A stretch of 64,000 bases of DNA from NCBI RefSeq assembly GCF_006874645.1, contig NZ_CP030082.1, positions 62,001 to 126,000 of the forward strand. The letters run 5' to 3'. Positions 35,733-53,297 of the stretch are shown in pieces. How positions within the stretch are numbered: the first letter of the stretch is position 1; the number at the start of each line of letters is the position of its first letter. A model generated the notes under the pieces. The model ran no database searches and was not told the DNA's origin. It saw only the letters and a list, made by a program, of their open reading frames with translations. The translations under genes and the position numbers were made by a program. This stretch comes from Bdellovibrio sp. ZAP7. GTDB lineage: Bacteria > Bdellovibrionota > Bdellovibrionia > Bdellovibrionales > Bdellovibrionaceae.

Positions 35733-35886
35733 GCGAGACTCTTTTTTGAGCTGAGACGTTAAATTGCCATAGGCCTCCACCCAAATCAAGGATTGGGGGC
35801 CTTATAACGGGGTGCTTTTTGCAAATTTCTTTAAGAATGCTTGATTTTTTGATTACTGCGGCTTAAACATACGTCTCTTTCACAGT

Positions 35887-35963: not shown

Positions 35964-36043
35964 TTTTTTCCCTAAATTCCCCTAAAAAATCAATACCTTA
36001 GAAAAAAGAATCACTATAGACTCTGTTTTGCAACGGAGGACTT

Positions 36044-36496: not shown

Positions 36497-36549
36497 TTTC
36501 TGTTTGACAAGATAGGCCCAAAATAATAGTTTGGCTTTCACCGAAACGT

Positions 36550-36625
36550 TCAGAAGTAGCTCAGTCGGTAGAGCAAGCGGCTGTTAACCGCTGGGTCGGG
36601 GGTTCGAGTCCCTCCTTCTGAGCCA
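36550..36625 (+). tRNA. tRNA-Asn (anticodon GTT)
   Basis: A 76-base gene with acceptor TCAGAAG/CTTCTGA, D arm TAGCTCAGTCGGTAGAG, anticodon GTT at 36583-36585 between AGCGG/CCGCT, T arm GGGGGTTCGAGTCCCTC and encoded CCA. The first-position G34 is a target for queuosine, whose pathway enzyme queF is in this window. Confidence 0.97.
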
Positions 36626-36650
36626 TTTTTTCTTACTTCGGTAAGACACC

Positions 36651-36675
36651 AAAACCAGCCTAGAGCTGGTTTTTT
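36651..36675 (+). terminator. Intrinsic terminator after tRNA-Asn
   Basis: The stem AAAACCAGC/GCTGGTTTT with loop CTAGA, followed by further T. It ends the tRNA-Asn transcript. The following ~210 bases before the next ATG hold no gene and should contain the promoter of the 36888 operon. Confidence 0.9.
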
Positions 36676-36887: not shown

Positions 36888-37640
36888 ATGAAAACATTCC
36901 TTGTGAGCTCTACCGTCACTTTTGTCCCTGGCAACTACGAGGGATTTATCAATCATCTTGCAAAAAGTGATCGTGTGCATGGCCTGATCTTAGTTGAAAA
37001 TCGTGATTGGAAAATTGCAGCAAAAGCCTTGCTGCTAATTATCTCCTTCGCGGCGCCTCGCATGGGGATGCATCTTTTGAAAAATTACTTCGGTAAATCA
37101 AACGCACGCAAAAAAGCGATGTTTGAAAAACACGGAAAAGCATTTCGAATTGTTTCAGATATTAATTCCGTTGAGACATTGAACTTCATCCAAGAAGAAA
37201 ACGTTGAACTCATAGTTAACGCTCGCACGCGTTCTTTCTTCAAAAAAAATCTTTTGAAAACTCCACGCTATGGTTGCATCAACATTCATCACGGCCTTCT
37301 TCCCGAGCAACGCGGCCTTATGTGCGACTTCTGGGCACATATGGAAAAAACTAAGTTTGGATTTTCGATTCATCAGATGACTTCCAAATTGGACGATGGA
37401 CCTATTCTTCATGTGGGCGAGGTCAAGACCTCTCCTTCAAACTATATGACATCTATATTCGAAGGGTCTTTAATAGAATCTCAAGCGATCGAAAAGTTAC
37501 TTAAAGATCTCGAGAAGAATAAAGCTTCAGAGAATATTTTTTCAGGCTTGGAAAATATCAAAACTGAGAAAACAAAATATCGCAGCAATCCCGGCTTGAT
37601 GGACTTTTACAAACTTCAGTGGAGAGGTACTAAAATATGA
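36888..37640 (+). CDS. Formyltransferase-fold protein
   Basis: A 250-residue protein of the Formyl_trans_N fold. The family's catalytic Asn-x-His is seen in INIHHGLLPEQRG, and the Asp in SKLDDGPIL, so the Asn-His-Asp triad of N10-formyl-THF-dependent formyltransferases appears intact. It lacks the C-terminal tRNA-recognition domain of methionyl-tRNA formyltransferase and the usual PurN layout, so a small-molecule or amino-sugar acceptor is more likely. It opens a four-gene plus-strand operon; its stop overlaps the next ATG (ATGA). The acceptor is unknown, but the context points to a lipid or head-group precursor. Confidence 0.75.
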   Translation: MKTFLVSSTVTFVPGNYEGFINHLAKSDRVHGLILVENRDWKIAAKALLLIISFAAPRMGMHLLKNYFGKSNARKKAMFEKHGKAFRIVSDINSVETLNFIQEENVELIVNARTRSFFKKNLLKTPRYGCINIHHGLLPEQRGLMCDFWAHMEKTKFGFSIHQMTSKLDDGPILHVGEVKTSPSNYMTSIFEGSLIESQAIEKLLKDLEKNKASENIFSGLENIKTEKTKYRSNPGLMDFYKLQWRGTKI

Positions 37641-40018
37641 AAATCATCTTTGCTCTTCATGGCAATCCTGGCGCTCCTCAAGATTGGTCCTTGCTACAAA
37701 ATCAGAATGTGAAAATTAAGGCTGTTGATGCTTATTCAGACGATTGGATTAGGGAAATTCAACAAAGCCCCGAGAAAGTGATTTTGTTGGGCCACTCCTG
37801 GGGTGCTTATCGTATTTTGAAAGCATTGCCGAAGGTTGCTGCGCACGTTGAAAGAGTCGTTTTGCTTGCTCCTTACGTGAATATCGAAAGACCCCTTTCT
37901 GGAGTCGCACAAGCTCTTTTAAAAACACCATGGCTCGGAGAGAAACTGATTCAGGGTAATCATAAGAAAAGCAAAGACGTCTTTTTGAATGATTTGATTT
38001 ATCCTTTTAAAGTTGAAGGCCTGCCCTACTATAAAGAAATCGAAAACCGCATGCAGCATTGGCAAATGTGGCAGAAAACGGCCTTCGTAAAAATGCAAAT
38101 GCAAGCAAACCCTTTGAGTAAAGCTGATGTCAGGCAGACACCAATCACGGTGATCTATGGTAATGACGATAAAATCAGCAGTGCCGATTCTCAGAATAAA
38201 ATCTTAAAACAATATCCAAACATCACGATTAAATATCTAGAAAATGCAGGTCACGGCATGCTGTGGTCTCATCCGGAAATGATCTCGAAGGAGCTTTTAA
38301 TGACGTCCACAAAAATCGGATATCACGCTGGCGAAAGCGAACAAAACAACGTTATCAGCTATATGGAGAAACATTTGCGTGAATTTCCTGATCGTGTGGC
38401 TTTGCGATGGGCTCGTCGTGAATCATTGATGCAATGGAATGGCGATCCGAAAACTCCGTTCCAGCATGATGAAATTAACTATAAAGACTTTTCCACACGT
38501 ATTTCCTCATTCGCTCAAGGTCTGATTGATATCGGTATCCAAAAAGGCGACAGAGTTATTATCTTTTTGCCAATGAGTCTGGATATGTACACGGCGATGT
38601 TCGCCGTTCAAAAAATCGGTGCAATTGCCGTTTTCCTGGATTCCTGGGCGCGCTCTCATCACTTGGGGGCTTCTGCTGAATGTGTGGGCCCTAAAGCCAT
38701 GATCAGCTTTAAAATGGCGTTTGATTTGGTAGATCAAGTTCCTGAATTTAACTCGATGCCAATCCGTATTCTTTATGGTCCTGGCGAGAAATTCACTCAT
38801 AAGTTTGAAACTTTATTGAAGGCCCCGATTTCTCCAGTGTGTGCGGTTGAATCTGAATTCTCGGCACTTATTACTTTCACGACGGGTTCGACTGGTAAAC
38901 CTAAGGGTGCCAACCGTACTCACCGTTTCTTGTCAGCGCAACACCACGCCTTGTCGCATGTTATTCCGTATACTGAGCAAGATCGCGATATGCCAGCTTT
39001 CCCTATTTTCAGTTTGAATAACCTGGCTTCAGGTGTAACTACGATTTTGCCAGCGTTGGACTTATCGGCTCCTTCAGAGCGTGATTCCGCGATCCTGGCT
39101 TGTCAGATCATTAATGAAAATATTAATTGCACAACGCTTTCGCCTTCTATGTTGGTTGGGCTTGCAAAGTTCTGTAAAGAAAAAAGCATTATCCTAAATA
39201 AGCTTCGTCGCGTGGTTACGGGTGGGGCTCCGATTTCAAAAGACGACGTTAAAGCGTTCTATGAAATTGCACCTCAGACGGAACTTTGGATTTTGTATGG
39301 TTCTACTGAAGCAGAACCAATGGCCCATATTGAAGGCCGTGACATGTTGAAAGAAACAAAACAAACAGATCCAGAGATTATCGAAGAGGGCGTGAACGTC
39401 GGTCATATCAGTGAAGACGTTGATTTTAAATTCGTGATTAGAAAAGACGGTCCAATTGAACTGAAGAATGGCTCATGGACGGGAGTTGAGGTTTCTAAGG
39501 GTGAAGTCGGCGAGTTCATCTGTACCGGGGATCATGTGTGCCGCGAGTACTACAATAATGAAGCAGCCTTTAAGACGACTAAAATCATGGATGCTGAAAA
39601 TCGCGTATGGCACCGCACGGGTGACCTTGCTTATATCGACCAAGATAAAAACTTGTGGATCGTGGGTCGCGTGAATAATGCGATTCAAAGAGCTGGTAAG
39701 TACTTCTTCCCGGTGACGGCTGAAGTATTGTTAAAACGCATGCCTTTTGCGTATCGTTGTGCATTTCTGGGTATGGCTGATGAAAAGCTGGGTGAAGCGA
39801 CTTATGCGGCGATTGAGCTAAAGGCCGAAATCGACAAAGCAACATTTGATTTCGAAGGGGCTCGCAAAGAAATCCAACGCGTCTTTGGGAAAAATGGAAT
39901 TCCTTTGGACAAAATTCTTTTTGTCGACAAAGTACCGATGGATCCACGCCATCACTCTAAAGTTGAGTATAAAGTACTGCGTGACCAACTTTCTCAACCT
40001 GGAGTTGTGATTGCGTAA
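37637..40018 (+). CDS. Alpha/beta-hydrolase fused to AMP-dependent acyl ligase (OleBC-like)
   Basis: A 793-residue two-domain protein. Residues 1-230 are an alpha/beta hydrolase: HGNPGAP oxyanion region, nucleophile in GHSWGAY, and a C-terminal GHGMLW His. From ~240 to the end is an ANL-family adenylating enzyme: P-loop TFTTGSTGKPKGA, YGSTEAEP, TGDLAYID, GR hinge and a near-terminal catalytic-type Lys in HHSKVEYK. The same domain order is known from OleBC fusions of long-chain olefin biosynthesis (beta-lactone synthetase plus beta-lactone decarboxylase). No OleA thiolase is present in this window, so the exact reaction may differ. It is translationally coupled to both neighbours. Confidence 0.8.
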   Translation: MKIIFALHGNPGAPQDWSLLQNQNVKIKAVDAYSDDWIREIQQSPEKVILLGHSWGAYRILKALPKVAAHVERVVLLAPYVNIERPLSGVAQALLKTPWLGEKLIQGNHKKSKDVFLNDLIYPFKVEGLPYYKEIENRMQHWQMWQKTAFVKMQMQANPLSKADVRQTPITVIYGNDDKISSADSQNKILKQYPNITIKYLENAGHGMLWSHPEMISKELLMTSTKIGYHAGESEQNNVISYMEKHLREFPDRVALRWARRESLMQWNGDPKTPFQHDEINYKDFSTRISSFAQGLIDIGIQKGDRVIIFLPMSLDMYTAMFAVQKIGAIAVFLDSWARSHHLGASAECVGPKAMISFKMAFDLVDQVPEFNSMPIRILYGPGEKFTHKFETLLKAPISPVCAVESEFSALITFTTGSTGKPKGANRTHRFLSAQHHALSHVIPYTEQDRDMPAFPIFSLNNLASGVTTILPALDLSAPSERDSAILACQIINENINCTTLSPSMLVGLAKFCKEKSIILNKLRRVVTGGAPISKDDVKAFYEIAPQTELWILYGSTEAEPMAHIEGRDMLKETKQTDPEIIEEGVNVGHISEDVDFKFVIRKDGPIELKNGSWTGVEVSKGEVGEFICTGDHVCREYYNNEAAFKTTKIMDAENRVWHRTGDLAYIDQDKNLWIVGRVNNAIQRAGKYFFPVTAEVLLKRMPFAYRCAFLGMADEKLGEATYAAIELKAEIDKATFDFEGARKEIQRVFGKNGIPLDKILFVDKVPMDPRHHSKVEYKVLRDQLSQPGVVIA

Positions 40019-40880
40019 CTGGCTGATTCTTATTAAAGAACGCTTTAGTCCGTTCCAATATATTCCTATGATTGTCGCCTTTACGGTGGCGAATGGTTTG
40101 TATTTGGCGAAAATAGAAAGCCATGATTGGAGCTGGAGCCGTTTTGCGATGGCTTTTGTTTTGATGTTGTCGTTCTTTTTCAGGATGCGTCTGTTTGATG
40201 AGATTAAAGACTATGAAGTTGATTTAAAAATCAACCCAACACGTCCCTTGGCTCGCGGTATCTTATCCGTTACGCAGGTGAAGCACGCATTAATGATTTT
40301 GATCCTGCTTGAGTTAGTGGTTGTATCGCAATTGGGTTTGCCAAGTTTTTTGGTACATGTTCTGGGAATTGGTTATAGCCTTCTCATGTACGAAGAGTTT
40401 TTTATCGGAGATATTCTTCGCCCTCACCTGACGACGTACGCTGTCTCTCATACATTCGTTAGTGTGCTGTTGGGGATTTCTGCAGCGGTGGGAATTTCTG
40501 GAGCTACAGATCTATCGATTTTGTGTAAACACGCCGCTTTCTTTTTAGTGAACTGGTGTTTCTTTAACCTGTTCGAATTTGCCAGAAAGACCTTTGCTCC
40601 TGAGGAAGAAAAAGAAAACGTTCCAAGCTATTCAAATATCTTTGGAACTAAAGGCGCTTATCTTTTGTCGATCAGTCAGGTCGTGTTGGGCTTGGCACTG
40701 CTAAGATATCAATTCGGTGAATTCTTGATGTGGCCTTGTCTGCTGGCGGCTGTTTATTTGGTCGCAACTATTGCCTATTTATTTAAGCCGAAAGCGGTAA
40801 ACGCAAAACTTTTCCGCGGTGTTACGGGTGCCTATTTGCTGGGTCACTTCATCGTTATGTCTATTGTGCTAGGAGCGTAA
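40011..40880 (+). CDS. UbiA-family prenyltransferase-like membrane protein
   Basis: A 289-residue protein with seven to nine membrane helices. The first Asp-rich motif is RLFDEIKDYEVD followed by NPTRPLARG, as in UbiA enzymes that bind prenyl diphosphate via magnesium. The second motif is the variant EFARKTFAPEEE seen in a UbiA subgroup rather than the classical DxxxD. It begins with TTG at 40011, inside the stop region of the ligase gene (8-base overlap), preceded by GGAG. It would attach an isoprenoid or related chain to an acceptor in the inner membrane. Substrates are unknown. Confidence 0.75.
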   Translation: MRNWLILIKERFSPFQYIPMIVAFTVANGLYLAKIESHDWSWSRFAMAFVLMLSFFFRMRLFDEIKDYEVDLKINPTRPLARGILSVTQVKHALMILILLELVVVSQLGLPSFLVHVLGIGYSLLMYEEFFIGDILRPHLTTYAVSHTFVSVLLGISAAVGISGATDLSILCKHAAFFLVNWCFFNLFEFARKTFAPEEEKENVPSYSNIFGTKGAYLLSISQVVLGLALLRYQFGEFLMWPCLLAAVYLVATIAYLFKPKAVNAKLFRGVTGAYLLGHFIVMSIVLGA

Positions 40881-40881
40881 A

Positions 40882-43563
40882 ATGTTGGTCACAAAAAAAT
40901 CCACATTGTTATTTGCAAAGAATGAAGCCGGCGGAAAAGGGTATAACCTTTATTTGATGTCTCAAGCCGGGGTGCCAGTTCCTGAGTGGGTGGTATTCGG
41001 TAAAAAGTATTTTAATGAATTCCTGGATGCAAAGAATGTCCGTGCGGCTGTCTCTGCGAAAGTGGATCAGGTGATGGCGGGTACTTTGTCTCCGGCTCAG
41101 GCCGAGAAAGACATTCTGGCAATCTTTGAATCCACGGCGGCGACTGAATACTTAAGTCAATCTGTGGACCAAGCGCTGACGATGTTAAATCAAAGCACGG
41201 TCTTTTCTGTGCGCTCATCGGCGGCAGACGAAGACAGCGTGTCTCATTCATTTGCGGGTCAGTTAAGCAGCTTCCTTTATGTGAGTGGTAAGCAGGACAT
41301 TTTAGATTTTATTAAAAAGTGCTGGGCGTCGGCTTTCAGCGAGCGTGCTTTGGTTTATCGTCAGGAAAACGGGATTGATCTTAAAAAGATCTCTGTATCC
41401 GTCGTCCTTCAGCGCATGCTTGATCCAGATAAATCAGGGGTGATGTTCACTTGTGATCCCGTTGCTAAAAATCTTACGAACTTTGTGATCTCCTCGGTCT
41501 ATGGTGTCGGCGAAGGCCTGGTTTCAGGTGCATTGGATGCGGATTCTTATTGGTTAAATTCCGCGACGGGTGCTTTGGATAAAAAAGAGATCGTGGAAAA
41601 GTCAGAGCAGATGAAAAAGTCTTCTTCTGGCCACTGTCAGTTATTACCAGTTGAGGAATCTAAAAAGAATGCGTCGTCATTGACGGATTCAGAATTGAAT
41701 GACCTTTATAAATGGGGCATGAAAATTCAAAATAGCTATTACCGTCCTCAGGATATCGAGTGGGCTATTCAAGACGGAAAGCTTTATATTCTACAAACCC
41801 GTCCTGTGACGAATCTGGAATCTGATTTAGTCGGCTACCCAAATCTGTGGGATAACTCCAACATCATTGAATCGTATGGTGGTTTGACGTCGCCATTGAG
41901 CTTTAGCTTTGCTTTGCGCAACTATAAAGCCGTATATGTGCAGTTCTGCGAAGTTCTGGGTGTCCCTTCCGAAATCATTAAGGATATGGATAACTATTTG
42001 TCGTACATGTTGGGTTCGATCAACGGCCGCGTGTATTACAACCTGTTCAACTGGTACAAACTGGTCGGTGTTCTTCCAGGGTTTAAGCAAAACCGCGAGT
42101 TTATGGAAACGATGATGGGTGTTTCTGAGTCATTGACGGATGAAATCGCAAATCGCATTAAGCCGCACCCGTCTTGGGATACTCCAGCTGGGAAACTTCG
42201 TCAGATGGTGACGGGTTTCAATTTTATTAAGTATCACTTTACGATTCAGACTGTGGTGGATGATTTCCTAAAAACCTTCCATCGCGATTATGACAGGTAC
42301 CGTGCAATGCCTCTTAAGAGAATGCGTGGCGACCAGTTGATTCAGATCTACGCAGAGCTTGAAAGAAACATGCTGGGTCGTTGGAAAGCACCGATCATTA
42401 ATGACTTCCTGTGCATGGTGCATTTTGGTTTGCTGAAAAAGCTTACGAATAAATGGCTTTCTGGTTTGGATTCGACAATTCAAAACGACCTGCTTGCGGG
42501 CGAAGGCGGTCTTGAGAGTGCAGAGCCGACGAAAGCATTACTTCGTTTGGCAAGCATTGCCGCTAAAAATCCTGGTTTAAAGACATTGATTGAAACGACA
42601 GATCCAAAAGATGGTCTGGAAGCTTTGAATCAGTCTAACTATGAAAACTTCTATCATCTGGTATTGGACTACTTGGATAAATACGGTTTCCGCTGTATGA
42701 GCGAAATGAAGCTTGAAGAAATCGACCTTTTGACGGATCCAAGCTACTTATTCGTTTGTTTAAAGAACTATCTAAAAGCTGGTAAAGTTGAAGTCCACGA
42801 CGATGCCCATGAAAAATCATTGCGTGCTCAGGCCGAAGAAAAAGTTGCGGGTCATCTTTCTGGATTCCGTCGCAGCATGTACTTCTGGGTGTTAAAACAC
42901 GCTCGTAAGGCTGTGAAAAACCGCGAGAACACGCGTTTTGCAAGAACTCGCATCTATGGTATTGCACGCACGATCTTTCAAGCTATCGGCGAAGATCTTG
43001 CCAGTTTGAGTGCTTTGGAAAATCCACGTGATATTTTCTGGCTGACGATCGAGGAAGTATTCGGAATCTACAATGGCACTTTGCCAGCGTACAATTTGAA
43101 TAACTTCGTTCAGCTCCGTAAAAAAGAGTACGATGGCTTCACTGAAGATACGGATCCACGTATTATGACTCGTGGTGCGGCTTATTGGAATAATACGTTC
43201 GTAAAACCGGTGGAAGAAGCTCCAATTGATCCAAATGCAACTTACGATCTAAAAGGTCTTCCATGCTGCCCAGGTATTTTAGAGGGCGTGGTGAAAGTTA
43301 TCCTTAATCCAGGTGATAACTTGGATTTGAATGGCGAGATTTTGGTGACGGCGAGAACAGATCCAGGATGGGTTCCATTGTATCCTGCGATTTCAGGTTT
43401 GCTGGTTGAGCGTGGAAGTTTGCTATCGCACTCAGCGATCGTAGCCCGAGAGATGGGTATTCCTGCGGTGGTCAGTATTCCGGGTCTGACGAAGACTTTG
43501 AAAACCGGCATGCGCATCCGTATGGATGGCAAAGCCGGTACAGTGGAAATCCTCAGCGAATAG
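40882..43563 (+). CDS. PEP-synthase/rifampicin-phosphotransferase-like dikinase
   Basis: An 893-residue protein. Residues 1-320 are the ATP-grasp PPDK_N domain (GGKGYNLYLM, FSVRSSAADED, GVMFTCDP, DIEWAIQDGKLYILQTRP). A ~450-residue helical middle domain follows. The C-terminal swivelling domain carries the phospho-histidine in LLSHSAIVAREMGIPAVV. There is no PEP-binding TIM barrel, so it is not PEP synthase or PPDK; the architecture equals rifampicin phosphotransferase, which splits ATP into AMP plus Pi and phosphorylates a small molecule. AGGAG precedes the ATG, one base after the UbiA-like stop. The substrate is probably an intermediate of the neighbouring pathway. Confidence 0.82.
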   Translation: MLVTKKSTLLFAKNEAGGKGYNLYLMSQAGVPVPEWVVFGKKYFNEFLDAKNVRAAVSAKVDQVMAGTLSPAQAEKDILAIFESTAATEYLSQSVDQALTMLNQSTVFSVRSSAADEDSVSHSFAGQLSSFLYVSGKQDILDFIKKCWASAFSERALVYRQENGIDLKKISVSVVLQRMLDPDKSGVMFTCDPVAKNLTNFVISSVYGVGEGLVSGALDADSYWLNSATGALDKKEIVEKSEQMKKSSSGHCQLLPVEESKKNASSLTDSELNDLYKWGMKIQNSYYRPQDIEWAIQDGKLYILQTRPVTNLESDLVGYPNLWDNSNIIESYGGLTSPLSFSFALRNYKAVYVQFCEVLGVPSEIIKDMDNYLSYMLGSINGRVYYNLFNWYKLVGVLPGFKQNREFMETMMGVSESLTDEIANRIKPHPSWDTPAGKLRQMVTGFNFIKYHFTIQTVVDDFLKTFHRDYDRYRAMPLKRMRGDQLIQIYAELERNMLGRWKAPIINDFLCMVHFGLLKKLTNKWLSGLDSTIQNDLLAGEGGLESAEPTKALLRLASIAAKNPGLKTLIETTDPKDGLEALNQSNYENFYHLVLDYLDKYGFRCMSEMKLEEIDLLTDPSYLFVCLKNYLKAGKVEVHDDAHEKSLRAQAEEKVAGHLSGFRRSMYFWVLKHARKAVKNRENTRFARTRIYGIARTIFQAIGEDLASLSALENPRDIFWLTIEEVFGIYNGTLPAYNLNNFVQLRKKEYDGFTEDTDPRIMTRGAAYWNNTFVKPVEEAPIDPNATYDLKGLPCCPGILEGVVKVILNPGDNLDLNGEILVTARTDPGWVPLYPAISGLLVERGSLLSHSAIVAREMGIPAVVSIPGLTKTLKTGMRIRMDGKAGTVEILSE

Positions 43564-43567
43564 TCGC

Positions 43568-44668
43568 TTAGGATTTCTTATAAATGTGGAATTGATAAAC
43601 GCCTGTGCCGTCAGTTTTAGCGGCCCAGGCGTTTTTGTCTTTAAGCTCCTGCCAACCCGTCAAATCCATTTCTTTTGCAGCACGCATGAAAGAACGGATC
43701 ACCATGCAAGTTCCTGAAGTATTTTCTTTGTTCAGTTTTTGCAAAACCTGATTCGCATCCTGGTCACTTAAGTAAGAGATCGTGTCAGACAGAGAAATGA
43801 AGCTGTATTTTTGCTTTGGCAAATACTCGAGCAAGTTACCCAACAGGTAGTTCACTTTTGTATTCGATTTCTTTACCGCTTCAAAGATATGGTGGTGTGC
43901 TTCCAGTGGAAGACCTTCTTCGTGACGGATGCTGCCTAAGAATAGAATCTGCATGAAGTAGTTCTTGCGAACTAATTGTGTGCGAAAGATACGGTCAAAC
44001 TCTTCAACGATGAACTGGCTTGGTGGGCGAGACTCTGTTTTGTGTCCATCGCTACCGCTGAAGTGACCTTTATAAAGGTATTTGTTAAACACAAACTCAC
44101 TTGCCGCGACCTTGATGAAAGTGTTCCAACGAATTTTTGGCCAGTGTTTTTCATACAGCTCAATTTGTTCAGACAAGCTTTGCGCTGCAAAAACTTTTGA
44201 GAAATCACACTTAAGAACTTCGCGGAACAAGTAACCCAATTTTTGGAAGTGAGATTCCCAGCGGCCCAAAAGGATAAAGCCATGGGGAGCCCAACCATTT
44301 TTGCGTTCTTCCCAATATTTTTTGGCTGCTTCCGAGAGGTTCAATTTATTGAACATAGCAACACGATCGTCGCCAGTGTCGCTGCCGGATTGCAAAGCAC
44401 CCCGGTAACCCATAAAGAACAAGTATTCTTCATAAGTCAGAGACTTCATACTTTGGAAGCGTAATTCGCAAAGATAATTTTGGCTTACCGACATATCGAT
44501 TACATCCAGAACCGCAGGATTTTTGGCAATCAAAGGCATGCAACGTGCGCCGGAGCCCGCAATACTAAATACGCGGTCACAGTTTTCTGGAAGAAGATCA
44601 AACTCGATACGAGTGTCTTCGTTGGACAGAGTGTAATTTAAATCTGAAAAATATTCGCTCGCCATCAT
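43568..44668 (-). CDS. BtaA-like (DUF3419) 3-amino-3-carboxypropyl transferase
   Basis: A 366-residue protein of the DUF3419/BtaA type. The start SDLNYTLSNEDTRIEFDLL parallels the YxQxWEDP region, RVFSIAGSGARCMPLI parallels the SAM-binding glycine motif, and VIDMSVSQNYL is the following acidic strand. BtaA moves the 3-amino-3-carboxypropyl group of SAM to diacylglycerol to make homoserine lipids; no BtaB N-methylase is adjacent. ATG 44668 (or 44665) follows CGAGGA; the longer frame enters the upstream gene. It is third in the minus operon with the barrel and LolA-like genes and is convergent with the dikinase (4 bases apart). Confidence 0.75.
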   Translation of the reverse strand: MMASEYFSDLNYTLSNEDTRIEFDLLPENCDRVFSIAGSGARCMPLIAKNPAVLDVIDMSVSQNYLCELRFQSMKSLTYEEYLFFMGYRGALQSGSDTGDDRVAMFNKLNLSEAAKKYWEERKNGWAPHGFILLGRWESHFQKLGYLFREVLKCDFSKVFAAQSLSEQIELYEKHWPKIRWNTFIKVAASEFVFNKYLYKGHFSGSDGHKTESRPPSQFIVEEFDRIFRTQLVRKNYFMQILFLGSIRHEEGLPLEAHHHIFEAVKKSNTKVNYLLGNLLEYLPKQKYSFISLSDTISYLSDQDANQVLQKLNKENTSGTCMVIRSFMRAAKEMDLTGWQELKDKNAWAAKTDGTGVYQFHIYKKS

Positions 44669-44678
44669 GTCCTCGTTT

Positions 44679-45764
44679 CTAAAAAGGTAAGTTTCCAGTA
44701 ACTTCAAATCGAATTCCAGCAACAGAGCCGCCGGTCATGTTTTTATAAACTGTAAAAAGACTGTCCTCGGTGCCTTCGTAATACTGTACGAATCCAGTCA
44801 GCGTAAACCAATCTGTAATGTTGTATCCGTAACTCAAACTTGCAAAGGCATCTTGGTTGATTGAGTTATAATATATTTGCGCCTGTAGATCGTGACGGTT
44901 GGGATTCCAGACCATGCTTACGTAGTACAAAGCCTTATAGTCATGCGTGTTCGTACTAAATCTTCCCGAATCATAGAAAGTGACCATGGGAAGGATAACG
45001 AAATTACCCAAAAATAAATCAACGCCCAGTGATCCGAAGTATTCGTCCTCGTAATCAGGATCTGCATGAATCGAATAGTCGCGACTTCCACCGATTTCAA
45101 TCTTAGGAACGGCTTTTTCAAAGGCATAGTTCGCCGTCATTCCATACACGTTTTTCATCGCCACGCGCGCGGCTAAAGCAGTGAATGCGATTCCTTTACC
45201 GTTAATTTTAACTCGTGCTCCATAACCTGACGTACCGTCGTCATCGTAGGTCAGGGTTTCCGGCAAAGGTTCAGGGTAATAGGTTTGTGCAAGTTTACTG
45301 ACGCCGACCAAATCCAACCCGAATGTCTCGGATTCATAGGAATAAGATGCGCCTTGCGAATGTGTTAGCTGGTCCGCAAAGGGATCAAAGAACAACCGGT
45401 TGTAGCGTCGGCCTGTCCACACATCCAAAGATGGCACGACCCAGCTATCACTCCAGCGCATGGCTTGTTGACCGACGCGGAAATAGGAAGATCCCGCTCT
45501 TAACTCCAAATAGGCTTCTTGAAGATAACCGCGATGCGGAGATCTGCGTTCTTCAGCATTTTGGGCATAATCGAAGTCGCCGAATCCGTCTGCAAACAGT
45601 TTGAAATGACCGGCCTCTGCATTCAGTTTTGAATGCAGTATTAGGCGGTTCGCCATCTCTTCCTTGTTTTCCCCACCGATATATTCGTATCGAGAGCCTA
45701 AGGTCAGATCAGCACGTGCAGAAAGTGAGGCTAACAATAAAGCCCAGGCAAGCCAAAACCTCAC
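44679..45764 (-). CDS. Outer-membrane beta-barrel protein
   Basis: A 361-residue protein. The signal peptide (FWLAWALLLASLSARA) is followed by alternating aromatic/polar beta strands over the whole length, ending in the C-terminal Phe typical of BAM substrates (TGNLPF). It begins with GTG at 45764, overlapping the LolA-like stop (GTGA). It is predicted to be an outer-membrane channel or acceptor working with the LolA-like carrier and the ABC transporter of the same region. The pattern resembles barrels paired with LolA-like proteins in lipid or RND export clusters. Confidence 0.75.
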   Translation of the reverse strand: MRFWLAWALLLASLSARADLTLGSRYEYIGGENKEEMANRLILHSKLNAEAGHFKLFADGFGDFDYAQNAEERRSPHRGYLQEAYLELRAGSSYFRVGQQAMRWSDSWVVPSLDVWTGRRYNRLFFDPFADQLTHSQGASYSYESETFGLDLVGVSKLAQTYYPEPLPETLTYDDDGTSGYGARVKINGKGIAFTALAARVAMKNVYGMTANYAFEKAVPKIEIGGSRDYSIHADPDYEDEYFGSLGVDLFLGNFVILPMVTFYDSGRFSTNTHDYKALYYVSMVWNPNRHDLQAQIYYNSINQDAFASLSYGYNITDWFTLTGFVQYYEGTEDSLFTVYKNMTGGSVAGIRFEVTGNLPF

Positions 45765-46468
45765 TTCATGCTTTCCATATTGCGGGTCGTGAAGAAGCTG
45801 TCATCGAAAGTTTTAGGTTTCATGCTTTTGATGCGGATGTAGCTAACCTGTTTGTTCACGTCTTGAATTTTAATAGTCGTTGGACGAACCGCGCCTGCGA
45901 TATTTTTATAATCTTCAAAAGAAGCACGCTTCAAGATCGTTTTCCCATCAAGACCCAAGTAATCAGCACGGAGTGGCTGCGCATTTGATTTTTTCAACCA
46001 CAGACGAATCCATGCATAAGTTAGGTTTTCTTTGGATCCTTTAAGTAACAATTGTACTTCGTTAGCATTCTCAGATTCTTTGGTAACAGTGTAGTCACCA
46101 GCCCATCTGGTTCTGGAGATATCACCGTTTGCAACCTGGCCAGAAAGTTTTTGCGCCAAGGATAAGCGCATCGATCTTTTTAAGTTAGGAATGTAGGCAT
46201 GAAAATCACGGTCAAGCATCAGCATGTTGCGGCCTTTATCGCGAGCCGGTTCTTTCGTGATGATCATTGTTTTATCTTGGCCTTTAAGAGAAACGTCAAA
46301 AACGGAAGTGCCCTCTGAAGTTTCCACTTGGATTTGCATTTCGTAGGAATCTGAAGGATTACGAATTTTGTCTGCGGCTTGAATCATTTGGTCGGGAGAT
46401 GCGGCCTTCGCTGCTAACGCTGAAAAAACCAGACCGAAGATAATTAGTTTAGCCTTTAGGATTTTCAT
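45761..46468 (-). CDS. LolA-like periplasmic (lipo)protein or lipid carrier
   Basis: A 235-residue protein with a signal peptide (ILKAKLIIFGLVFSALAAKA) and the outer-membrane-lipoprotein-sorting fold: TSVFDVSLKGQDKTMII, GRNMLMLDRDFHAYIPNLKRSMRL and WIRLWLKKSNAQPLRADYLG are typical half-barrel strands. Proteins of this type carry hydrophobic cargo across the periplasm. ATG 46468 follows GGAGATCATC. It is divergent (64-76 bases) from the LolD-like ATPase and is first in an operon with the barrel and BtaA-like genes. That arrangement suggests a dedicated transport route rather than general lipoprotein sorting. Confidence 0.82.
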   Translation of the reverse strand: MKILKAKLIIFGLVFSALAAKAASPDQMIQAADKIRNPSDSYEMQIQVETSEGTSVFDVSLKGQDKTMIITKEPARDKGRNMLMLDRDFHAYIPNLKRSMRLSLAQKLSGQVANGDISRTRWAGDYTVTKESENANEVQLLLKGSKENLTYAWIRLWLKKSNAQPLRADYLGLDGKTILKRASFEDYKNIAGAVRPTTIKIQDVNKQVSYIRIKSMKPKTFDDSFFTTRNMESMK

Positions 46469-46544
46469 GATGATCTCCACAATTTAAGTATCTATACTGT
46501 TTGAGCCTCCTCCACTTTAACCTTCCGTATTCAAAGGAGCAACT

Positions 46545-47225
46545 GTGAGTGCGCTATACAGACTTCAAAACCTAGATTACTCCTATGAGTGGAATAAACA
46601 AAAAGTGCCCGTTTTGAAGACTTTGAATATCTCTTTTGATGAGGCCTGTTTTTGTTGCATCGTCGGTCCCAGTGGATCCGGTAAAACCACGCTATTAAAT
46701 CTTCTTGGATTATTGGATTCCCCGACAAATGGCCAAATCATTTTTGGGGGTCAAGATGTGGGCAACCTTCCAGAGCGTGAAAAGGAAAATATCCGTCTTC
46801 ATCAAGTGGGATTTGTTTTTCAAAGCTTCTACTTAATTCCGACTCTGACGATTTTGGAAAATACGTCTTATTTCTTACCATCTTTGGGTTATTCCCAGGC
46901 AGATGCAAAAAAGACGGCACTAGAAACTTTGGATTTACTGGGAATTGCGAATCACGCGCACAAAAAACCGTTGGAGTTATCTGGTGGTCAACGTCAAAGG
47001 GCAGCGATTGCCCGTGCGATTGCTAAAAAACCATCCGTGGTTCTGGCGGACGAGCCGACCGCGAACTTGGATTCTGAAACGTCTGAAAAAATCATTGGTG
47101 CCTTCAAGGAACTTCAGAAATCTCAACGCACTAGTTTTATTTTCTCCACGCACGACGCTCATCTAGTTAAGTATGCAGAGACGATCCATCACATCAAAGA
47201 CGGCCAAATTTCTACAGGAGCATAA
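46545..47225 (+). CDS. LolD/MacB-type ABC transporter ATP-binding protein
   Basis: A 226-residue ATPase with Walker A GPSGSGKTT, Q-loop FVFQSFYLIP, signature LSGGQRQR, Walker B VVLADEPTANLD and switch His STHD. It groups by motif with LolD/MacB/FtsE ATPases that power extraction or mechanotransmission rather than classical transport. It begins with GTG at 46545 after AAAGGAGCAACT. The permease follows after 4 bases. Together with the divergent LolA-like and barrel genes it forms an envelope delivery module. Confidence 0.93.
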   Translation: MSALYRLQNLDYSYEWNKQKVPVLKTLNISFDEACFCCIVGPSGSGKTTLLNLLGLLDSPTNGQIIFGGQDVGNLPEREKENIRLHQVGFVFQSFYLIPTLTILENTSYFLPSLGYSQADAKKTALETLDLLGIANHAHKKPLELSGGQRQRAAIARAIAKKPSVVLADEPTANLDSETSEKIIGAFKELQKSQRTSFIFSTHDAHLVKYAETIHHIKDGQISTGA

Positions 47226-47229
47226 GCAC

Positions 47230-48438
47230 ATGACTGAGATTTTTAAAATTGCCTGGAGAAATCTTTTCCGTAACCCGCGCAGAACAGCAGCAAGTCTGTT
47301 AACCGTATGTTTGGGTGCTGCCGCTCTTTTGATCTACCAAGGATTCAACAGCGGGATCATGAATCAATACCGCGAGAATACCATCCACGGTTACTATGGT
47401 TTTGGCCAAGTTTTTCCTAAAGGTTATTACGGAAAAGTATTCGAACAACCTTGGAAGATGTGGATTGAAAATCCGGAAGAGGCCGAGAAGAAGCTTTTGT
47501 CGGCTACCGGTGTGGAACAAGTCTTCCCCCGTCTTTCATTTTATAGCTTTCTAGCCAAGGGTGGAATCACGCTGGGTGGACGTGGCGAGGGGGTTTTGCC
47601 GGAAAGAGAAAATAAGTTCTTTGATAAGATGAACTTTATTTCCGGTGGCGACCTTAAAGATGAAAGCGAAATCATTCTTGGTAAGGGTTTGGCTGATTCT
47701 TTGGACGTTAAAGCGGGCGACACACTGACTCTTTTAACTCAAACGATCAATGGTCAGCTAAATGGTGCTGATTTAAAAGTTGCCGGTGTTTTTCATATGG
47801 GTATTAAGGCCATCGATGATGGTTACTATCGCTTGCACCTGAAGCAAGCTCAACGCCTGCTTGATACTCAGCGCGTGGAATTGTTCTCGCTTGCGACAAC
47901 GGGTGTGGATCACTGGGATGAAGTAGCCAAGAACATCACTCAAGCGGATCCAAATCTTGAGCCTGTGCGCTTTGAAATTCTGGATAAAGTATACTATCAA
48001 AATTCGGTGGACTTTTTGTCAGCACAGTTTGCCTTTATCCGTATGATTATTTTGTTGATCGTGGCATTGGGTATTTTCAATACCATCGCAGTCGGCTTGC
48101 TTGAGCGTGGTGGCGAGATTGGTGCCCTAAGAGCCAATGGTGAAAAGCGCAGTCGTCTGTTTAAAATTCTTTTGCTGGAGAATTCATTCTTGGGATTGTT
48201 CGGCGGGATCTTGGGGATTTTACTGGCCTTGCTTTGCACGAAGACGGTTTTGGCATCTGGAATCCCGATGCCTCCAGGCCCAGGGATTACTCGTCAGTAT
48301 TTGATTTTCATTGAGATTCAAGGAAGTCATTATGTGCAGGCATTGTTGTTGCCGATGTTTACGGCGATCATTGCCAGCTGCTGGCCGATCTTCAAACTTT
48401 TGCGCAGATCCATTCCAGAATTACTGCGCTCGACGTAA
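47230..48438 (+). CDS. LolC/E-type (MacB_PCD/FtsX) ABC permease
   Basis: A 402-residue membrane protein of the FtsX/LolC class. A cytoplasmic amphipathic start IFKIAWRNLFRNPRRTA is followed by the first helix (SLLTVCLGAAALLIYQG), a ~230-residue periplasmic domain, and three C-terminal helices with the usual LIVALGIFNTIAVGLLERGGEIGALRANG coupling region. ATG 47230 is chosen because the longer frame from 47173 runs inside the ATPase gene. It pairs with the LolD-like ATPase. It probably extracts a lipid or lipoprotein from the inner membrane for the neighbouring LolA-like carrier. Confidence 0.9.
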   Translation: MTEIFKIAWRNLFRNPRRTAASLLTVCLGAAALLIYQGFNSGIMNQYRENTIHGYYGFGQVFPKGYYGKVFEQPWKMWIENPEEAEKKLLSATGVEQVFPRLSFYSFLAKGGITLGGRGEGVLPERENKFFDKMNFISGGDLKDESEIILGKGLADSLDVKAGDTLTLLTQTINGQLNGADLKVAGVFHMGIKAIDDGYYRLHLKQAQRLLDTQRVELFSLATTGVDHWDEVAKNITQADPNLEPVRFEILDKVYYQNSVDFLSAQFAFIRMIILLIVALGIFNTIAVGLLERGGEIGALRANGEKRSRLFKILLLENSFLGLFGGILGILLALLCTKTVLASGIPMPPGPGITRQYLIFIEIQGSHYVQALLLPMFTAIIASCWPIFKLLRRSIPELLRST

Positions 48439-48442
48439 AAGA

Positions 48443-50566
48443 TTATCTTTTCAAAAGAGCAAGTTGGCGGGTTAGTTCAAACTCACGGTCGGTGATAACA
48501 CCCATGTGACCTTGGATTTCCGCCAATTCGACCCCGTGTTTTACAGCCATCTTATAGATCTGCTTCACTTTGTCCCATTCGATATCACGGCCCATCGTGA
48601 ATGATTCGTGACGACCTTCCATTGCTAACAGCGCCGTTTCTGCGAGGCAGGCATAAACGGTTTTTCCCGGTAAGCCCAAATCACAAGACATTTGCATTGG
48701 ACCTGGCAAATTCACTTCGCCGGATTCCATGATCAAAACGTCAGGACGTTTTCTAACGTCTTCCATTTCGAAATCCAATGGACGAGAACAGTCCGCGACA
48801 ACGCAGCCGGGTTTCAAAAGCATCACATCCACGATTTTTTGATCGAAGGATGAAGTCGCCGTCAACAGCGCATCCGCTTGGGAAGCCAGTTCATTTGCGT
48901 TCGTCGATAAAATGATTTCACAGTTTGGCGCAATTTGACGGATCTCTTCACGCAGTTCTTCCAAGCGATTCATTCTTGGCGCCACCAAGCAAAGTTTTTT
49001 AAATGTCAGTGCGAGAAGTTTTGCCGAAACCTTACCAATAGAACCCGTCGCACCGATAACCATCGCCATGCCGTTTACGCGATTGTCACTTGGGTCGATG
49101 GTAACAAAACCCATTTTTCTAACAGCTTGGTTAAGACCCCACAAAGTCGCAGAAGCACTTAGACTGTTACCAGTGGTCACAGGAATCGGACTGTTTTGAT
49201 TGATCGTGATACCTTGGTCACCGACGATCTTAGTGTAGGCGCCAAGACCCGCGATCTTAGCACCACGAGCAGCGGCGTCTCGACAGATGCCTTCGATTTG
49301 GCGATAGATCACTTCAGGATCAGATTCTTTTAATACTTTTGGTGTCGCCATTAACCCATAGATGATACCGCTGACTTCCTTGCCATTGTGCTGACTGATC
49401 ACGTGTTTGATTTCACCGTAAACAATCGGTGGAGCTTTAGAAATCAGGCGATCAAATGGATCATTCCATGATTTAGGCATTTGTTTTAAAATTCCAAATC
49501 CTGGAACACGTGTAAAGTCATTGTGAGAAAGAGCATGCACAACGAATGCGAAATCAGGTGGCTCTTCTTTTTTAAGTTTACCTCTGACGAAATTGATTCC
49601 TTTTGAAACCTTTGCCTGAGTGGAAGTCTGGCGCGTAGTCGTATACTGGCGAGCCACATCACGAACTTCTGTTTCAGTCGCCAGGAGTTGTTCCCACTCC
49701 TCATTGGAAAGCGGAGCCGTTCTGTTGTGAGTTAAACGAAGGACGGCGTCCAAGATCGAATAGTTCATATATGGGCTGACGTTAAATTCTTCAGGGAAAA
49801 GATTGATGATGGATCTTGGTTCGTATTTTTTAAGCTCTTGCTCCATCAATGGATGATGTGACCAGACGATTACATCTTTGTTGCGAACAACGTCAGCACC
49901 AGAGTCATAAAGTAAAATAATCGGAAGATCACCGCAGACGTATTGCAGGTGCTCAGCTTGAGAAACCAAAGATGAACGCATCATCTTTTGAAATTTATTT
50001 TCTGCAAAAGGAGTGTTGTTACGCAGGTCACGCATTGTCGCAAAATTAAGAGCTGTTTTGGTGACTGTCTTAAGGCCTTTGAAGGGACGAATAACAAAAG
50101 GCAGCCCTAAAAGCGCAAAAGCATCCCCCATGTGCACTGATTTTGGGTAACGATGACGAAGAAACTCTTCTATTTCCAGATTGAGAATTGCAGTTGGAAA
50201 GAATACACCCTGTTCCGGCTGAACTTTACCTTGATCGATCATTTTTACGAGTGAATTGATATTGGCAATTTCACGAAGCCCCGTGCCGTCACAAATGGGT
50301 ACCGAAGACGGTAAACCCATGATCTCAAGATACTGACTGTGAACGTAGCTTTTTCCATCCATGCGGATGACAGGAGGAAGACTTGTCAAAGCGAAGGCAT
50401 CAACTTGATCACGCAAACTTGTGATCAGATTTTTCATCAGATCGACGGAGAATTGCACTCCAAAGCGTTGTACTTCAAAGTGATTGCCACCGTAATCAAA
50501 TTCAAAGGAAGCATCCCAGAAGGGGCGACCGAAACTAATCTCTGCGATGCGATATGTACTTTTCAT
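48443..50566 (-). CDS. Acyl-ACP-reductase-like enzyme with extra N-terminal domain
   Basis: A 707-residue protein. The last ~340 residues resemble cyanobacterial long-chain acyl-ACP reductase (AAR): GLGAYTKIVGDQGITI, TTGNSLSASATLWGL, NADPH motif GATGSIGKVSA, and VYACLAETALLAMEG, where the Cys aligns with the catalytic Cys294 of AAR and forms the acyl thioester. AAR makes fatty aldehydes from acyl-ACP. The N-terminal ~370 residues have no domain I recognise. ATG 50566 follows GGAGAGGCT and lies 32 bases inside the upstream reductase gene. It is last of three minus-strand genes. Confidence 0.75.
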   Translation of the reverse strand: MKSTYRIAEISFGRPFWDASFEFDYGGNHFEVQRFGVQFSVDLMKNLITSLRDQVDAFALTSLPPVIRMDGKSYVHSQYLEIMGLPSSVPICDGTGLREIANINSLVKMIDQGKVQPEQGVFFPTAILNLEIEEFLRHRYPKSVHMGDAFALLGLPFVIRPFKGLKTVTKTALNFATMRDLRNNTPFAENKFQKMMRSSLVSQAEHLQYVCGDLPIILLYDSGADVVRNKDVIVWSHHPLMEQELKKYEPRSIINLFPEEFNVSPYMNYSILDAVLRLTHNRTAPLSNEEWEQLLATETEVRDVARQYTTTRQTSTQAKVSKGINFVRGKLKKEEPPDFAFVVHALSHNDFTRVPGFGILKQMPKSWNDPFDRLISKAPPIVYGEIKHVISQHNGKEVSGIIYGLMATPKVLKESDPEVIYRQIEGICRDAAARGAKIAGLGAYTKIVGDQGITINQNSPIPVTTGNSLSASATLWGLNQAVRKMGFVTIDPSDNRVNGMAMVIGATGSIGKVSAKLLALTFKKLCLVAPRMNRLEELREEIRQIAPNCEIILSTNANELASQADALLTATSSFDQKIVDVMLLKPGCVVADCSRPLDFEMEDVRKRPDVLIMESGEVNLPGPMQMSCDLGLPGKTVYACLAETALLAMEGRHESFTMGRDIEWDKVKQIYKMAVKHGVELAEIQGHMGVITDREFELTRQLALLKR

Positions 50567-51566
50567 AGCCTCTCCAGAAAGTAGCTTCGTACTCTTTGAA
50601 CTCAGGACACCAGTTTGCACCTAAAACTGCTTCAGTATCACTGGAGTCGTATTTAGGAAAATGCAGAAGATAGTTTAGTTCTTCCTGGGGAAACTTCAAG
50701 GCTAGTTCAGAGACGGCCTTCAGCAGTGTCTCCGGAACGTTATCTACAAGTTTAATGCCCTTGTTGCTGATACTTCGATTTTCCAAAGTCGATTTATAAA
50801 GTTCTTCGATATCAAGTCCATGCTTTGGCGTGATATGAAAGCTTCGATAAGAAGTATTGTCTGAATTCAAAGACCAATTACAAAATTTAACAATAGCTTC
50901 AGCCGCTTTATCAACGGGTACCAAAGGCAAAGTTCTACCGACTGTTCCAGGAACCGGTAGTACTGTGGGGAATGCTTCAATAACTTTTTTCAAACGATCG
51001 AAAGCCACGGGTGCTTGATAAGGGCCATCGATACGTTGAATTTCACCGTCAACGGTGTCCCCGACTAAAACTCCTAGACGAAAATTAACTTTCAAACGGA
51101 ATTCGTGATTCCAGTTTTGAATGGTTTTTTCGGCTAAAGCTTTGGATTCAGAATAGGGATCGGGGAATGAACTTGAGAAATTTAAATCGTAAGGTTTCAC
51201 GGCAGGCAATTTTGAATTCACAGCTGCTGCAACGGAGCTTGTATTCATGAACACAGGAATATTTAAAAGACTTGCAACCTTAAGAGCGGTACCAGTTCCA
51301 GTGATATTGTGGTGAAAACATTCTTCGTGTGTAGCAGTTAGATCATAAAGACCTGCCATGTGTAACAAGATATCAAATTTTTCAGCTTTTAAAGCTTCAA
51401 TGTCCAAGCCCGCATTCCACTTGCGCAAGTCACCTTGAACTTCGGTATTGTCCGAGCGGGACATCACGTAAACCTGAAAATTTTCACGCAGCAATGGAAC
51501 AACCTTCTGACCCAGAAAGCCCGTACCACCCGTCACCAAAATTTTAGGTTTTGATTTGTTCGTCAT
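50535..51566 (-). CDS. NAD(P)-dependent epimerase/3-beta-HSD-type reductase
   Basis: A 343-residue extended short-chain dehydrogenase. The N-terminal nucleotide motif is TGGTGFLGQK, a conserved NTSSVAA strand follows, and the catalytic YxxxK is YSESKALAEK. This class includes OleD, which reduces beta-keto acids in olefin synthesis, as well as thioester reductase-like domains. ATG 51566 overlaps the upstream stop (ATGA), so it is coupled to the lipid kinase gene, and it overlaps the acyl-reductase gene by 32 bases. It may reduce a keto or aldehyde intermediate produced by its neighbours. Confidence 0.82.
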   Translation of the reverse strand: MTNKSKPKILVTGGTGFLGQKVVPLLRENFQVYVMSRSDNTEVQGDLRKWNAGLDIEALKAEKFDILLHMAGLYDLTATHEECFHHNITGTGTALKVASLLNIPVFMNTSSVAAAVNSKLPAVKPYDLNFSSSFPDPYSESKALAEKTIQNWNHEFRLKVNFRLGVLVGDTVDGEIQRIDGPYQAPVAFDRLKKVIEAFPTVLPVPGTVGRTLPLVPVDKAAEAIVKFCNWSLNSDNTSYRSFHITPKHGLDIEELYKSTLENRSISNKGIKLVDNVPETLLKAVSELALKFPQEELNYLLHFPKYDSSDTEAVLGANWCPEFKEYEATFWRGYEKYISHRRD

Positions 51567-52570
51567 TTTGCTGCCACCACGATTGGTAAGAAACGGTGCA
51601 GACATTTCACAGTCAGTTCACTGACACCTTTATGCAGAACTTCGCCGTCACCAAAGAACGTCAGTGGACGTTTTGAGTTTTTAGTTTTCAATGAAAACTC
51701 TTTCAACTCGTAAGATTTAGAATACGGTAGTCTTGCAGCTGTCCCACGACGGATGTTCAAAGCCGTGCGAACGTGTTCTGCTTGAGAGCTAGATTCAGAA
51801 ATCAATAGGTTCATGGTTCCATCAGTATTTGAGGTAAAAGGAGCAGGAGTAAATGTGGAAGCCACATTCGGTTGATTGTTCACTAGAATGATGGGAGCTG
51901 TTGTTTCAAACTTCGATTTATTGGGAATATTAACTTCTAAATTCCAATCTGTGGGATCCCAAGTGCGAATGGCTTCAAGGGCCATCATCGAATAGATCTG
52001 TGGTCCCATCTTTTTAACCATCGAATAACTTTGTTTTGCTAAGAACTTGAATGCCAATGTTGCCTTCGGGCAGTCGGATCTTTTTTGCAAATAGCTGCGG
52101 AAGTCATTAGACATTTCGGCCGTCATTGCTGGTAGTCCCAATCCACCATTCGTTAGCATATAGGATTTTTTGCCATCACCTGTGACTTCAATCACATCGA
52201 TATTTTTTGTCGTTCCTTCAAGAATATTGCGCACGGCTTGGTGAATTTTAGTTGAAATACCCATTCTTTCCGCAAGGTCGTTGGCAGTCCCAGAGCGCAC
52301 CAGAGTAACTGGTGGCATATCGAAACCCAATCTTTCATGGATTCGGATCATAGTTTGGAATGTCACATTGATCGTACCATCACCGCCACAGATGATCAGG
52401 GCGTTGGTTTTATTCAACATTTCATGGGCTAAAAAGAGGTCCAATTCCTCAAGAGTTTTGGGGGCAGCAAAATGCAAATCACAACGGAAAAGCGCTTCGC
52501 GAACAATAGCTTCCACTTGCCCTTGATTGGACGAGCCTGCCTTCGGATTGATTAGGATCGAAACTCTCAT
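51563..52570 (-). CDS. Diacylglycerol-kinase-family lipid kinase
   Basis: A 335-residue DAGK_cat protein. The start INPKAGSSNQG is the typical phosphate-contacting loop, CGGDGTINV is the GGDGT nucleotide-binding motif, and RSGTANDLAERMG is the third signature. A C-terminal beta-rich domain ends with FFGDGEVL. Such enzymes phosphorylate diacylglycerol, sphingosine-like or other lipid alcohols at the inner membrane. First gene of a three-gene coupled operon with the SDR and acyl-reductase-like genes, preceded by a 260-base leader with possible hairpins. Confidence 0.88.
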   Translation of the reverse strand: MRVSILINPKAGSSNQGQVEAIVREALFRCDLHFAAPKTLEELDLFLAHEMLNKTNALIICGGDGTINVTFQTMIRIHERLGFDMPPVTLVRSGTANDLAERMGISTKIHQAVRNILEGTTKNIDVIEVTGDGKKSYMLTNGGLGLPAMTAEMSNDFRSYLQKRSDCPKATLAFKFLAKQSYSMVKKMGPQIYSMMALEAIRTWDPTDWNLEVNIPNKSKFETTAPIILVNNQPNVASTFTPAPFTSNTDGTMNLLISESSSQAEHVRTALNIRRGTAARLPYSKSYELKEFSLKTKNSKRPLTFFGDGEVLHKGVSELTVKCLHRFLPIVVAAK

Positions 52571-52832
52571 GACATACCTCTATGAATGATCCCCTTAATT
52601 GCATGTTATGTGCCCCTACCTGGGAGCGCCGTCTAGCAATAGTTTCTAGGTGGGAAGCTCTAGCTGTCTTAAAGTTAGACAGGGTGACAGGCAGGGCCTA
52701 TACAGCCGAATTAAGGTAAACCAAATGTAACCAGTTGAAAACACTGGTAGAGGTCTAATTCCATCTCGATAGAGGTATAGTTCCGTGGGTTGGGACTTGT
52801 TAAATGAAATGGTGAAAAATACGATATTGTTT
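52571..52832. promoter_or_regulatory. Divergent leader region with small inverted repeats
   Basis: About 260 bases between the lipid-kinase operon and a lipoprotein gene, without a gene. It contains the hairpin CTGTCT/AGACAG (52664-52669 with 52677-52682) and nested GAGC...CTAG...CTAG...GCTC repeats (about 52624-52660). Divergent promoters should lie here; none could be assigned with confidence. Confidence 0.4.
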
Positions 52833-53297
52833 ATGAAAAACACTGTTCTAATTTTAGCGTTCTTGGGGCTTTCCGCTTGCGCGGGAAAATATAACATCAA
52901 ATCTTCGGAAGCAGCCATGAACTACGTTGCCCATACTGCGCACGTGATTAACCAGGGTGGTAATTCCAAAGATATGGATACTCACGTGTCTCGTGCATTG
53001 ATGGTGCGCGGACTTAAGGTGACTGACAGTGAGTCTGTAGCGAATCTGCCTAAGACCGATATTTTGGTTAAGTACACGGATAGCTGGCAGTGGGATATCA
53101 CGATGTACCTAAGAGCCGTGGACATTACTTTTTATGATAGAAGCGGAAATATCTTAGCTTCTGGAAATTACACGAACTCGTTTTTTCACGAATGGCCAAA
53201 TGAGGGCCAAGTCGTACAAAAAGTTGTCGATGATATGTTTGCTAAGCTTGGAATCACACCAGGAAAAAGACAGGCTTCGAATCCAACTAAGCCTTAA
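52833..53297 (+). CDS. Small lipoprotein
   Basis: A 154-residue protein with a lipoprotein signal (NTVLILAFLGLSAC, lipobox LSAC). The mature part has a repeated beta pattern (TDILVKYTDSWQWDITMYLRAV) like DUF4136-type small lipoproteins, though this is not certain. The ATG at 52833 is selected because it places the signal at the N-terminus; in-frame starts at 52785 and 52809 exist and no clear ribosome site decides. Its stop is 2 bases from the convergent barrel gene. Confidence 0.7.
   Translation: MKNTVLILAFLGLSACAGKYNIKSSEAAMNYVAHTAHVINQGGNSKDMDTHVSRALMVRGLKVTDSESVANLPKTDILVKYTDSWQWDITMYLRAVDITFYDRSGNILASGNYTNSFFHEWPNEGQVVQKVVDDMFAKLGITPGKRQASNPTKP

Follow-up and report, generated by a model that had tools for sequence, protein, structure and literature searches.

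The twelve genes at positions 36888–52570 of the window (the whole stretch of 64,000 nucleotides analysed, positions 62001–126000 of a single contig of 4.12 Mb from Bdellovibrio sp. ZAP7) were found to be a jointly inherited biosynthetic system that recurs in about a third of the phylum. On balance, we favour the view that they form one gene cluster for a so far undescribed specialised lipid. The best reading of the chemistry is a lipid that would carry a SAM-derived aminocarboxypropyl group and be N-formylated or N-acylated, and in Bdellovibrio the product is probably carried towards the outer membrane. The families of the cluster proteins were assigned by Pfam and NCBIfam searches, and the features are as follows.

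36550–36625, + strand: tRNA-Asn (gtt), left border of the island, found with ARAGORN; the flanks of an island-free genome join just past it
36888–37640, + strand: formyltransferase-fold enzyme, N-terminal catalytic domain only (Formyl_trans_N PF00551, E 1.7e-13)
37637–40018, + strand: serine hydrolase (S54-D178-H206) fused to an acyl-AMP ligase (K775) (Hydrolase_4, AMP-binding)
40011–40880, + strand: UbiA-family membrane transferase (PF01040, E 4.4e-15)
40882–43563, + strand: ATP-dependent phosphotransferase/ligase of RPH/PigC architecture (PPDK_N and PEP-utilizers)
43568–44722, − strand: BtaA-like (DUF3419) probable SAM 3-amino-3-carboxypropyl transferase (PF11899, E 4.4e-59)
44679–45764, − strand: predicted outer-membrane barrel, 361 aa, kept in place in 26 loci
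45761–46480, − strand: LolA-like periplasmic carrier (LolA_like PF17131, E 2.7e-33; PDB 3buu, E 1e-35)
46545–47225, + strand: LolD-type ABC ATPase (ABC_tran; TIGR02211)
47173–48438, + strand: LolC/MacB-type permease (FtsX and MacB_PCD; TIGR02212)
48443–50620, − strand: two-domain reductase with a C half of AAR/PigE type (Cys658, GATGSIG)
50535–51605, − strand: extended SDR of the fatty-acyl reductase/OleD/epimerase superfamily (NAD_binding_4/Epimerase; S123-Y151-K155)
51563–52570, − strand: YegS/DAGK-type lipid kinase (DAGK_cat PF00781 and YegS_C PF19279; GGDGT motif)

Each of the twelve reading frames was present and open. The first unit (+ strand) contained the formyltransferase, hydrolase-ligase, UbiA and RPH/PigC-like genes, followed by the LolA-like, barrel and BtaA-like genes in the second (− strand), the LolD-like and LolC-like genes in the third (+ strand) and the kinase, SDR and reductase genes in the fourth (− strand). 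Overlaps of 4 nt were found at 37637 and 45761, and also at 51563 if the start suggested by homologues is used; the alignments placed the likely starts of LolC (47230), BtaA (44668), the reductase (~50566) and the SDR (51566) downstream of those of the longest reading frames. The first-pass annotation had described twelve adjacent genes in four tight units with 4-base gaps between the convergent ones, and this layout was borne out, the overlaps being real and the gaps lying at 43564–43567 and 48439–48442. The families that it had read from motifs were upheld by Pfam and NCBIfam, except for the 'OleB' part and a single-domain reductase, and the barrel had no Pfam match.

A profile search with the reductase was positive in 91 of the 293 Bdellovibrionota genomes, and 80 loci were named. 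The neighbourhood was conserved across Bdellovibrionia, Bacteriovoracia and Oligoflexia, even where identity falls to 25–50%. It was counted in the 44 named loci (among L045–L124) with at least 6 kb on each side of the reductase, where the companions of the reductase were the kinase (43 loci), the SDR (42), the BtaA-like gene (41), the RPH/PigC-like gene (35) and the ligase (33); UbiA was also usual nearby in Bdellovibrionota loci. This search, which covered Bdellovibrionota and other phyla, found that the set is not scattered in Bdellovibrionota, the reductase lying nearly always beside the kinase, SDR and BtaA-like genes. At L061, L068 and L073, the genes were present in one single-direction operon with mostly overlapping ends, and the ligase and UbiA were one fused protein at these three loci and at L122. 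Only the kinase, SDR, reductase and BtaA-like genes were within reach at L096 and L108, so a second module, made up of the remaining enzymes, may decorate a core product.

The same 60 relatives were examined for the reductase, BtaA-like, RPH/PigC-like (orthologue-level) and LolC-like genes. Among the 24 genomes of the genus, all four genes were found in 16, including that of the window, and none in 8. The RPH/PigC-like gene was retained on a contig other than that of the reductase in G001, G009 and G018; the two were also on separate contigs in G003 and G013, but these assemblies are fragmented. Outside the genus, G031 (72% complete) was devoid of the BtaA-like gene and G035 of the LolC-like gene, the LolC-like gene of G047 sat on another contig, and G036 contained more distant BtaA-like and RPH/PigC-like relatives and no reductase match. 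The earlier claim of a single system is thus sustained by the conserved neighbourhood, the co-inheritance, the block-wise absence and the gene fusion.

The block begins directly past the tRNA-Asn gene, the terminator-like stem of which lies at 36651–36673. In G011, a close relative without the block, the counterparts of window positions 36688 and 53300 lie at locus positions 4710 and 4727, with only 16 bases in between, whereas in G021 the left flank stopped at 36638 and was followed by a relative of the small gene at 52785–53297. These empty-site junctions place the borders of the block close to 36888 and 52570, the limits first drawn for it. Three tRNA genes (Ser, Arg and Asn; 35642–36625) precede the island, and the same three were present at the empty sites. 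No direct repeats of at least 11 bp were found at the borders and the GC content of the island was no different, so there was no sign of how the block moved. The cluster needs at least three changes within the genus on the rpoB protein tree, where the genome of the window and G022 were placed among genomes without the cluster; in the reductase tree, these two branched outside the other members of the genus. Loss in relatives and fresh gain by transfer both fit this pattern.

Further genes were found inside or beside the cluster in other genomes. Several Bdellovibrio genomes (L026:7857–10727, L028, L029, L030 and L036) contained a gene with a Peptidase_S74 fibre chaperone domain, and such genes resemble the MAT adhesins (PMC10769870). 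HD100-type loci (L031:3–2603) contained a second AMP-ligase (593 aa) and a gene of the Ser/Thr kinase-PEGA type upstream of the formyltransferase. Ribonucleotide reductase genes adjoined the cluster at L065:14805–18139, and the same ORF families were found in 15–18 loci.

The catalytic residues of the enzymes were conserved in alignments of 24–86 sequences. N132, H134 and D169 of the formyltransferase were conserved in 31 sequences, S54-D178-H206 of the hydrolase, which contains a GHSWG motif, and K775 of the ligase in 24 hydrolase-ligase fusions, the conserved residues of the BtaA-like protein in 71 sequences and the GGDGT motif of the kinase in 86, and the D63xxxD67xxxD71 motif of the UbiA-like protein and the phosphohistidine H850 of the RPH/PigC-like protein were conserved as well. 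OleB requires an Asp nucleophile. The hydrolase-ligase had been called an OleBC-like fusion and, since its hydrolase contains a Ser nucleophile, that label was wrong. The ligase scored 210 bits against OleC (cut-offs 850/900) and the SDR 40 bits against OleD (cut-off 580), both far below the cut-offs, and no thiolase or ketosynthase (OleA) was found among the twelve genes. Membership of the OleABCD olefin/beta-lactone pathway was therefore rejected, although a hydrolase-AMP-ligase fusion and an SDR are found in the cluster too.

The reductase (725 aa) had been described as acyl-ACP-reductase-like. Its C-terminal half kept the AAR fold, the NADPH motif (GATGSIG) and the acyl-cysteine (Cys658, aligned with C294 of AAR), whereas the protein as a whole has two domains and reached 67 bits against the single-domain AAR family TIGR04058 (cut-off 449.7). 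The model of the C half matched AAR 6jzq with a Z of 30.0 (329 aligned, 4.0 Å) and gave a Z of 30 with the reductase domain of carmabin as well. The N half matched no sequence family. Modelled alone, it gave a pLDDT of 86, and AAR-type folds were at the top of the fold search with a modest Z of 10.6 and 8% identity, only about 2 above unrelated rows; a profile comparison of the N half, as a possible duplicated AAR domain, gave a probability of 6%. Full-length two-domain relatives with about 30% identity were also carried by Armatimonadota (L117 and L118). The L117 locus was rejected as the same cluster, its reductase relative sitting among unrelated genes (folate, pantothenate kinase).

PigE was the closest named relative of the C half (163 bits; PDB 4ppm, E 4e-32), and it is reported to reduce a thioester (PMC8341465). 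The RPH/PigC-like protein contained an ATP-grasp domain and a C-terminal phosphohistidine domain with no further Pfam domain, and thus no pyruvate-binding barrel, and was related to the RPH structures 5fbs/5hv1. It passed the cut-off of NF004881, named PEP synthase (1272 bits, cut-off 883), fell below the equivalog cut-offs of RPH (349/999 bits) and PigC (372/1300 bits), and matched PigC/RedH with 372–383 bits. Three steps of the tambjamine/prodiginine pathways (TamA, TamH/PigE and TamQ/PigC) are therefore represented in the cluster, namely an acyl-AMP ligase, an AAR-type thioester reductase and an ATP-dependent ligase of RPH architecture, and the product could be a secreted amphiphilic antibiotic or pigment of this sort, exported by the ABC transporter, and not a membrane lipid. 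G028, of the family of the window, contained a PigE-like aminotransferase-reductase fusion (L044:9563–14639; 295 bits, cut-off 850) overlapping a PigC/RPH-like gene, a TamH-TamQ-like pair. However, Pfam found no aminotransferase domain in the 725-aa reductase of the cluster, the cut-offs of PigE and PigC were missed by a wide margin, and the block contained no pyrrole, ketosynthase or carrier-protein genes. The kinase, BtaA-like and LolA-like proteins have no place in the tambjamine/prodiginine pathways, to which the cluster also adds a UbiA-like protein and the other Lol-like parts. A secreted product was considered unlikely.

We gave somewhat less credence still to two separate adjacent pathways, in which the kinase, SDR, reductase and BtaA-like proteins, with the Lol export, would make a lipid and the formyltransferase, ligase, UbiA and RPH/PigC-like proteins another compound. 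The second of these modules was found on another contig in several genomes, and L096, L097, L107, L108 and L110 contained the first with no second within 10 kb. However, the presence or absence of the two modules coincided in 24 of 24 genomes of the genus, and genes of both were interleaved in the overlapping operons of L061, L068 and L073. The formyltransferase was found in 30 loci and a GNAT-like gene (called from a weak Pfam match that fell short of the gathering score, E 0.0016) in 20, and the two were never found together (Fisher p 5e-7 among the RPH/PigC-like loci, in a test that ignores relatedness). The ligase of the formyltransferase loci carried the hydrolase, either fused or as two adjacent ORFs, whereas the GNAT-like loci contained a ligase without hydrolase and were often joined by a P450 or a metallo-hydrolase. 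On the simplest reading, the formyltransferase and the GNAT-like enzyme would both modify the same amine. The fusion of ligase with UbiA and the mutual exclusion of the two modifying genes thus argue for one pathway with two product types.

The BtaA-like protein matched PF11899 (DUF3419) near full length with 201 bits (cut-off 28.2), and a PDB sequence search found no relative of it. BtaA/BtaB betaine-lipid synthesis shares this DUF3419 enzyme, whose expected role is to transfer the aminocarboxypropyl group from SAM. It is nevertheless very improbable that BtaA makes an ordinary homoserine (betaine-type) glycerolipid as a way of sparing phosphate and that the other genes are accessories to it. 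No BtaB-like methyltransferase was found in the cluster of the window or in that of L068, and the conserved companions, the ligase and the almost always present thioester reductase and lipid kinase, would be unneeded. We know of no DUF3419 acceptors besides diacylglycerol. The idea that unrelated lipid-metabolism genes lie together by chance, in favour of which one can say only that each family is common by itself, was rejected on the neighbourhood, co-inheritance, fusion and empty site.

The export parts were found to be less constant than the enzymes. The LolD-type ATPase scored 206 bits against TIGR02211 (cut-off 307.75) and the LolC-type permease 88.7 bits against TIGR02212 (cut-off 362.45). 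The barrel protein had no Pfam or PDB sequence match, and the gene in its position at L107 had a weak DUF1302 match, so the outer-membrane barrel stays a prediction. Lol lipoprotein sorting also uses a LolD/LolC-type ABC transporter and a LolA-fold carrier; in the cluster, however, the carrier is of PF17131, the LolD and LolCE cut-offs were missed, a barrel gene is adjacent and the parts are tied to lipid enzymes. The aryl polyene/xanthomonadin clusters, which are likewise specialised-lipid clusters with their own LolA-like carrier, contain ketosynthase genes and an RND-type exporter, whereas here ketosynthase genes are lacking and a LolCD-type ABC transporter replaces the exporter. The genes of the dedicated export route proposed in the first-pass annotation go with the enzymes in Bdellovibrio, where the LolC-like gene strictly tracked them, and not everywhere. 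In the Bacteriovoracaceae-like family f12, a LolA-like match (E 1e-25) was found in 8 of the 21 tested reductase-positive genomes and was missing from 13, and it was found in 2 of 19 genomes without the reductase. The LolC-like, LolA-like and barrel genes were all missing from G035. L097 (Silvanigrella) and L107 contained the kinase, reductase, BtaA-like, LolA-like and barrel-like genes in a row, so the export link extends beyond Bdellovibrio, though it is optional.

The reaction sequence given here is a proposal, as are the product and its location, and is drawn from the families and the conserved active sites. The reductase would convert an acyl thioester to a fatty aldehyde via Cys658, the SDR would reduce a carbonyl, and the YegS/DAGK-type kinase would phosphorylate a lipid hydroxyl. 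The BtaA-like enzyme would transfer the 3-amino-3-carboxypropyl group of SAM to the lipid, and the formyltransferase, or the GNAT-like enzyme in other genomes, would acylate the amine. The hydrolase-ligase may provide an acyl group in activated form, the RPH/PigC-like enzyme may activate a partner by ATP-dependent phosphorylation, and the UbiA-like membrane enzyme may couple the pieces. In Bdellovibrio, delivery of the product to the outer membrane would fall to the LolCD-like ABC transporter, LolA-like carrier and barrel, export parts that often do not accompany the enzymes elsewhere. Only tentatively can the full proposal be made of a new outer-membrane lipid class. Such a lipid would combine a reduced fatty chain with an aminocarboxypropyl group from SAM, would exist as an N-formylated and an N-acylated chemotype, and would be assembled by the ligase, UbiA and PigC-like enzymes and loaded by its own Lol-type parts.

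The earlier statement that no pathway with this gene set has been described agrees with the open-licence literature on BtaA/DUF3419 with Bdellovibrio or acyl-ACP reductase and on HD100 locus tags, in which no description of the cluster was found. In a comparison of NC01 with HD100, Bd3162, a kinase listed under lipid metabolism or transport, was missing from NC01 (PMC7137782). ftsZ is Bd3189 (PMC12546842), and in G006 ftsZ lies about 30 kb from the cluster kinase gene, so Bd3162 may be the cluster kinase. A secreted-looking protein of 110 aa was found between the modules of an HD100-like genome (L031:10849–11181); by position it could be Bd3155, the numbering being a guess. Bd3155 is strongly raised on prey attachment (PMC12546842).

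We found no earlier case of a pathway that links BtaA-like, AAR/PigE-like and PigC-like enzymes, as this cluster does. The envelopes of predatory bacteria are unusual. A lipid cluster inherited as a set in about a third of the phylum, with the type strain HD100 probably among the carriers, would give a defined genetic handle on such an envelope. A possible role for Lol-type transporters in carrying lipids besides lipoproteins is also suggested by the cluster.
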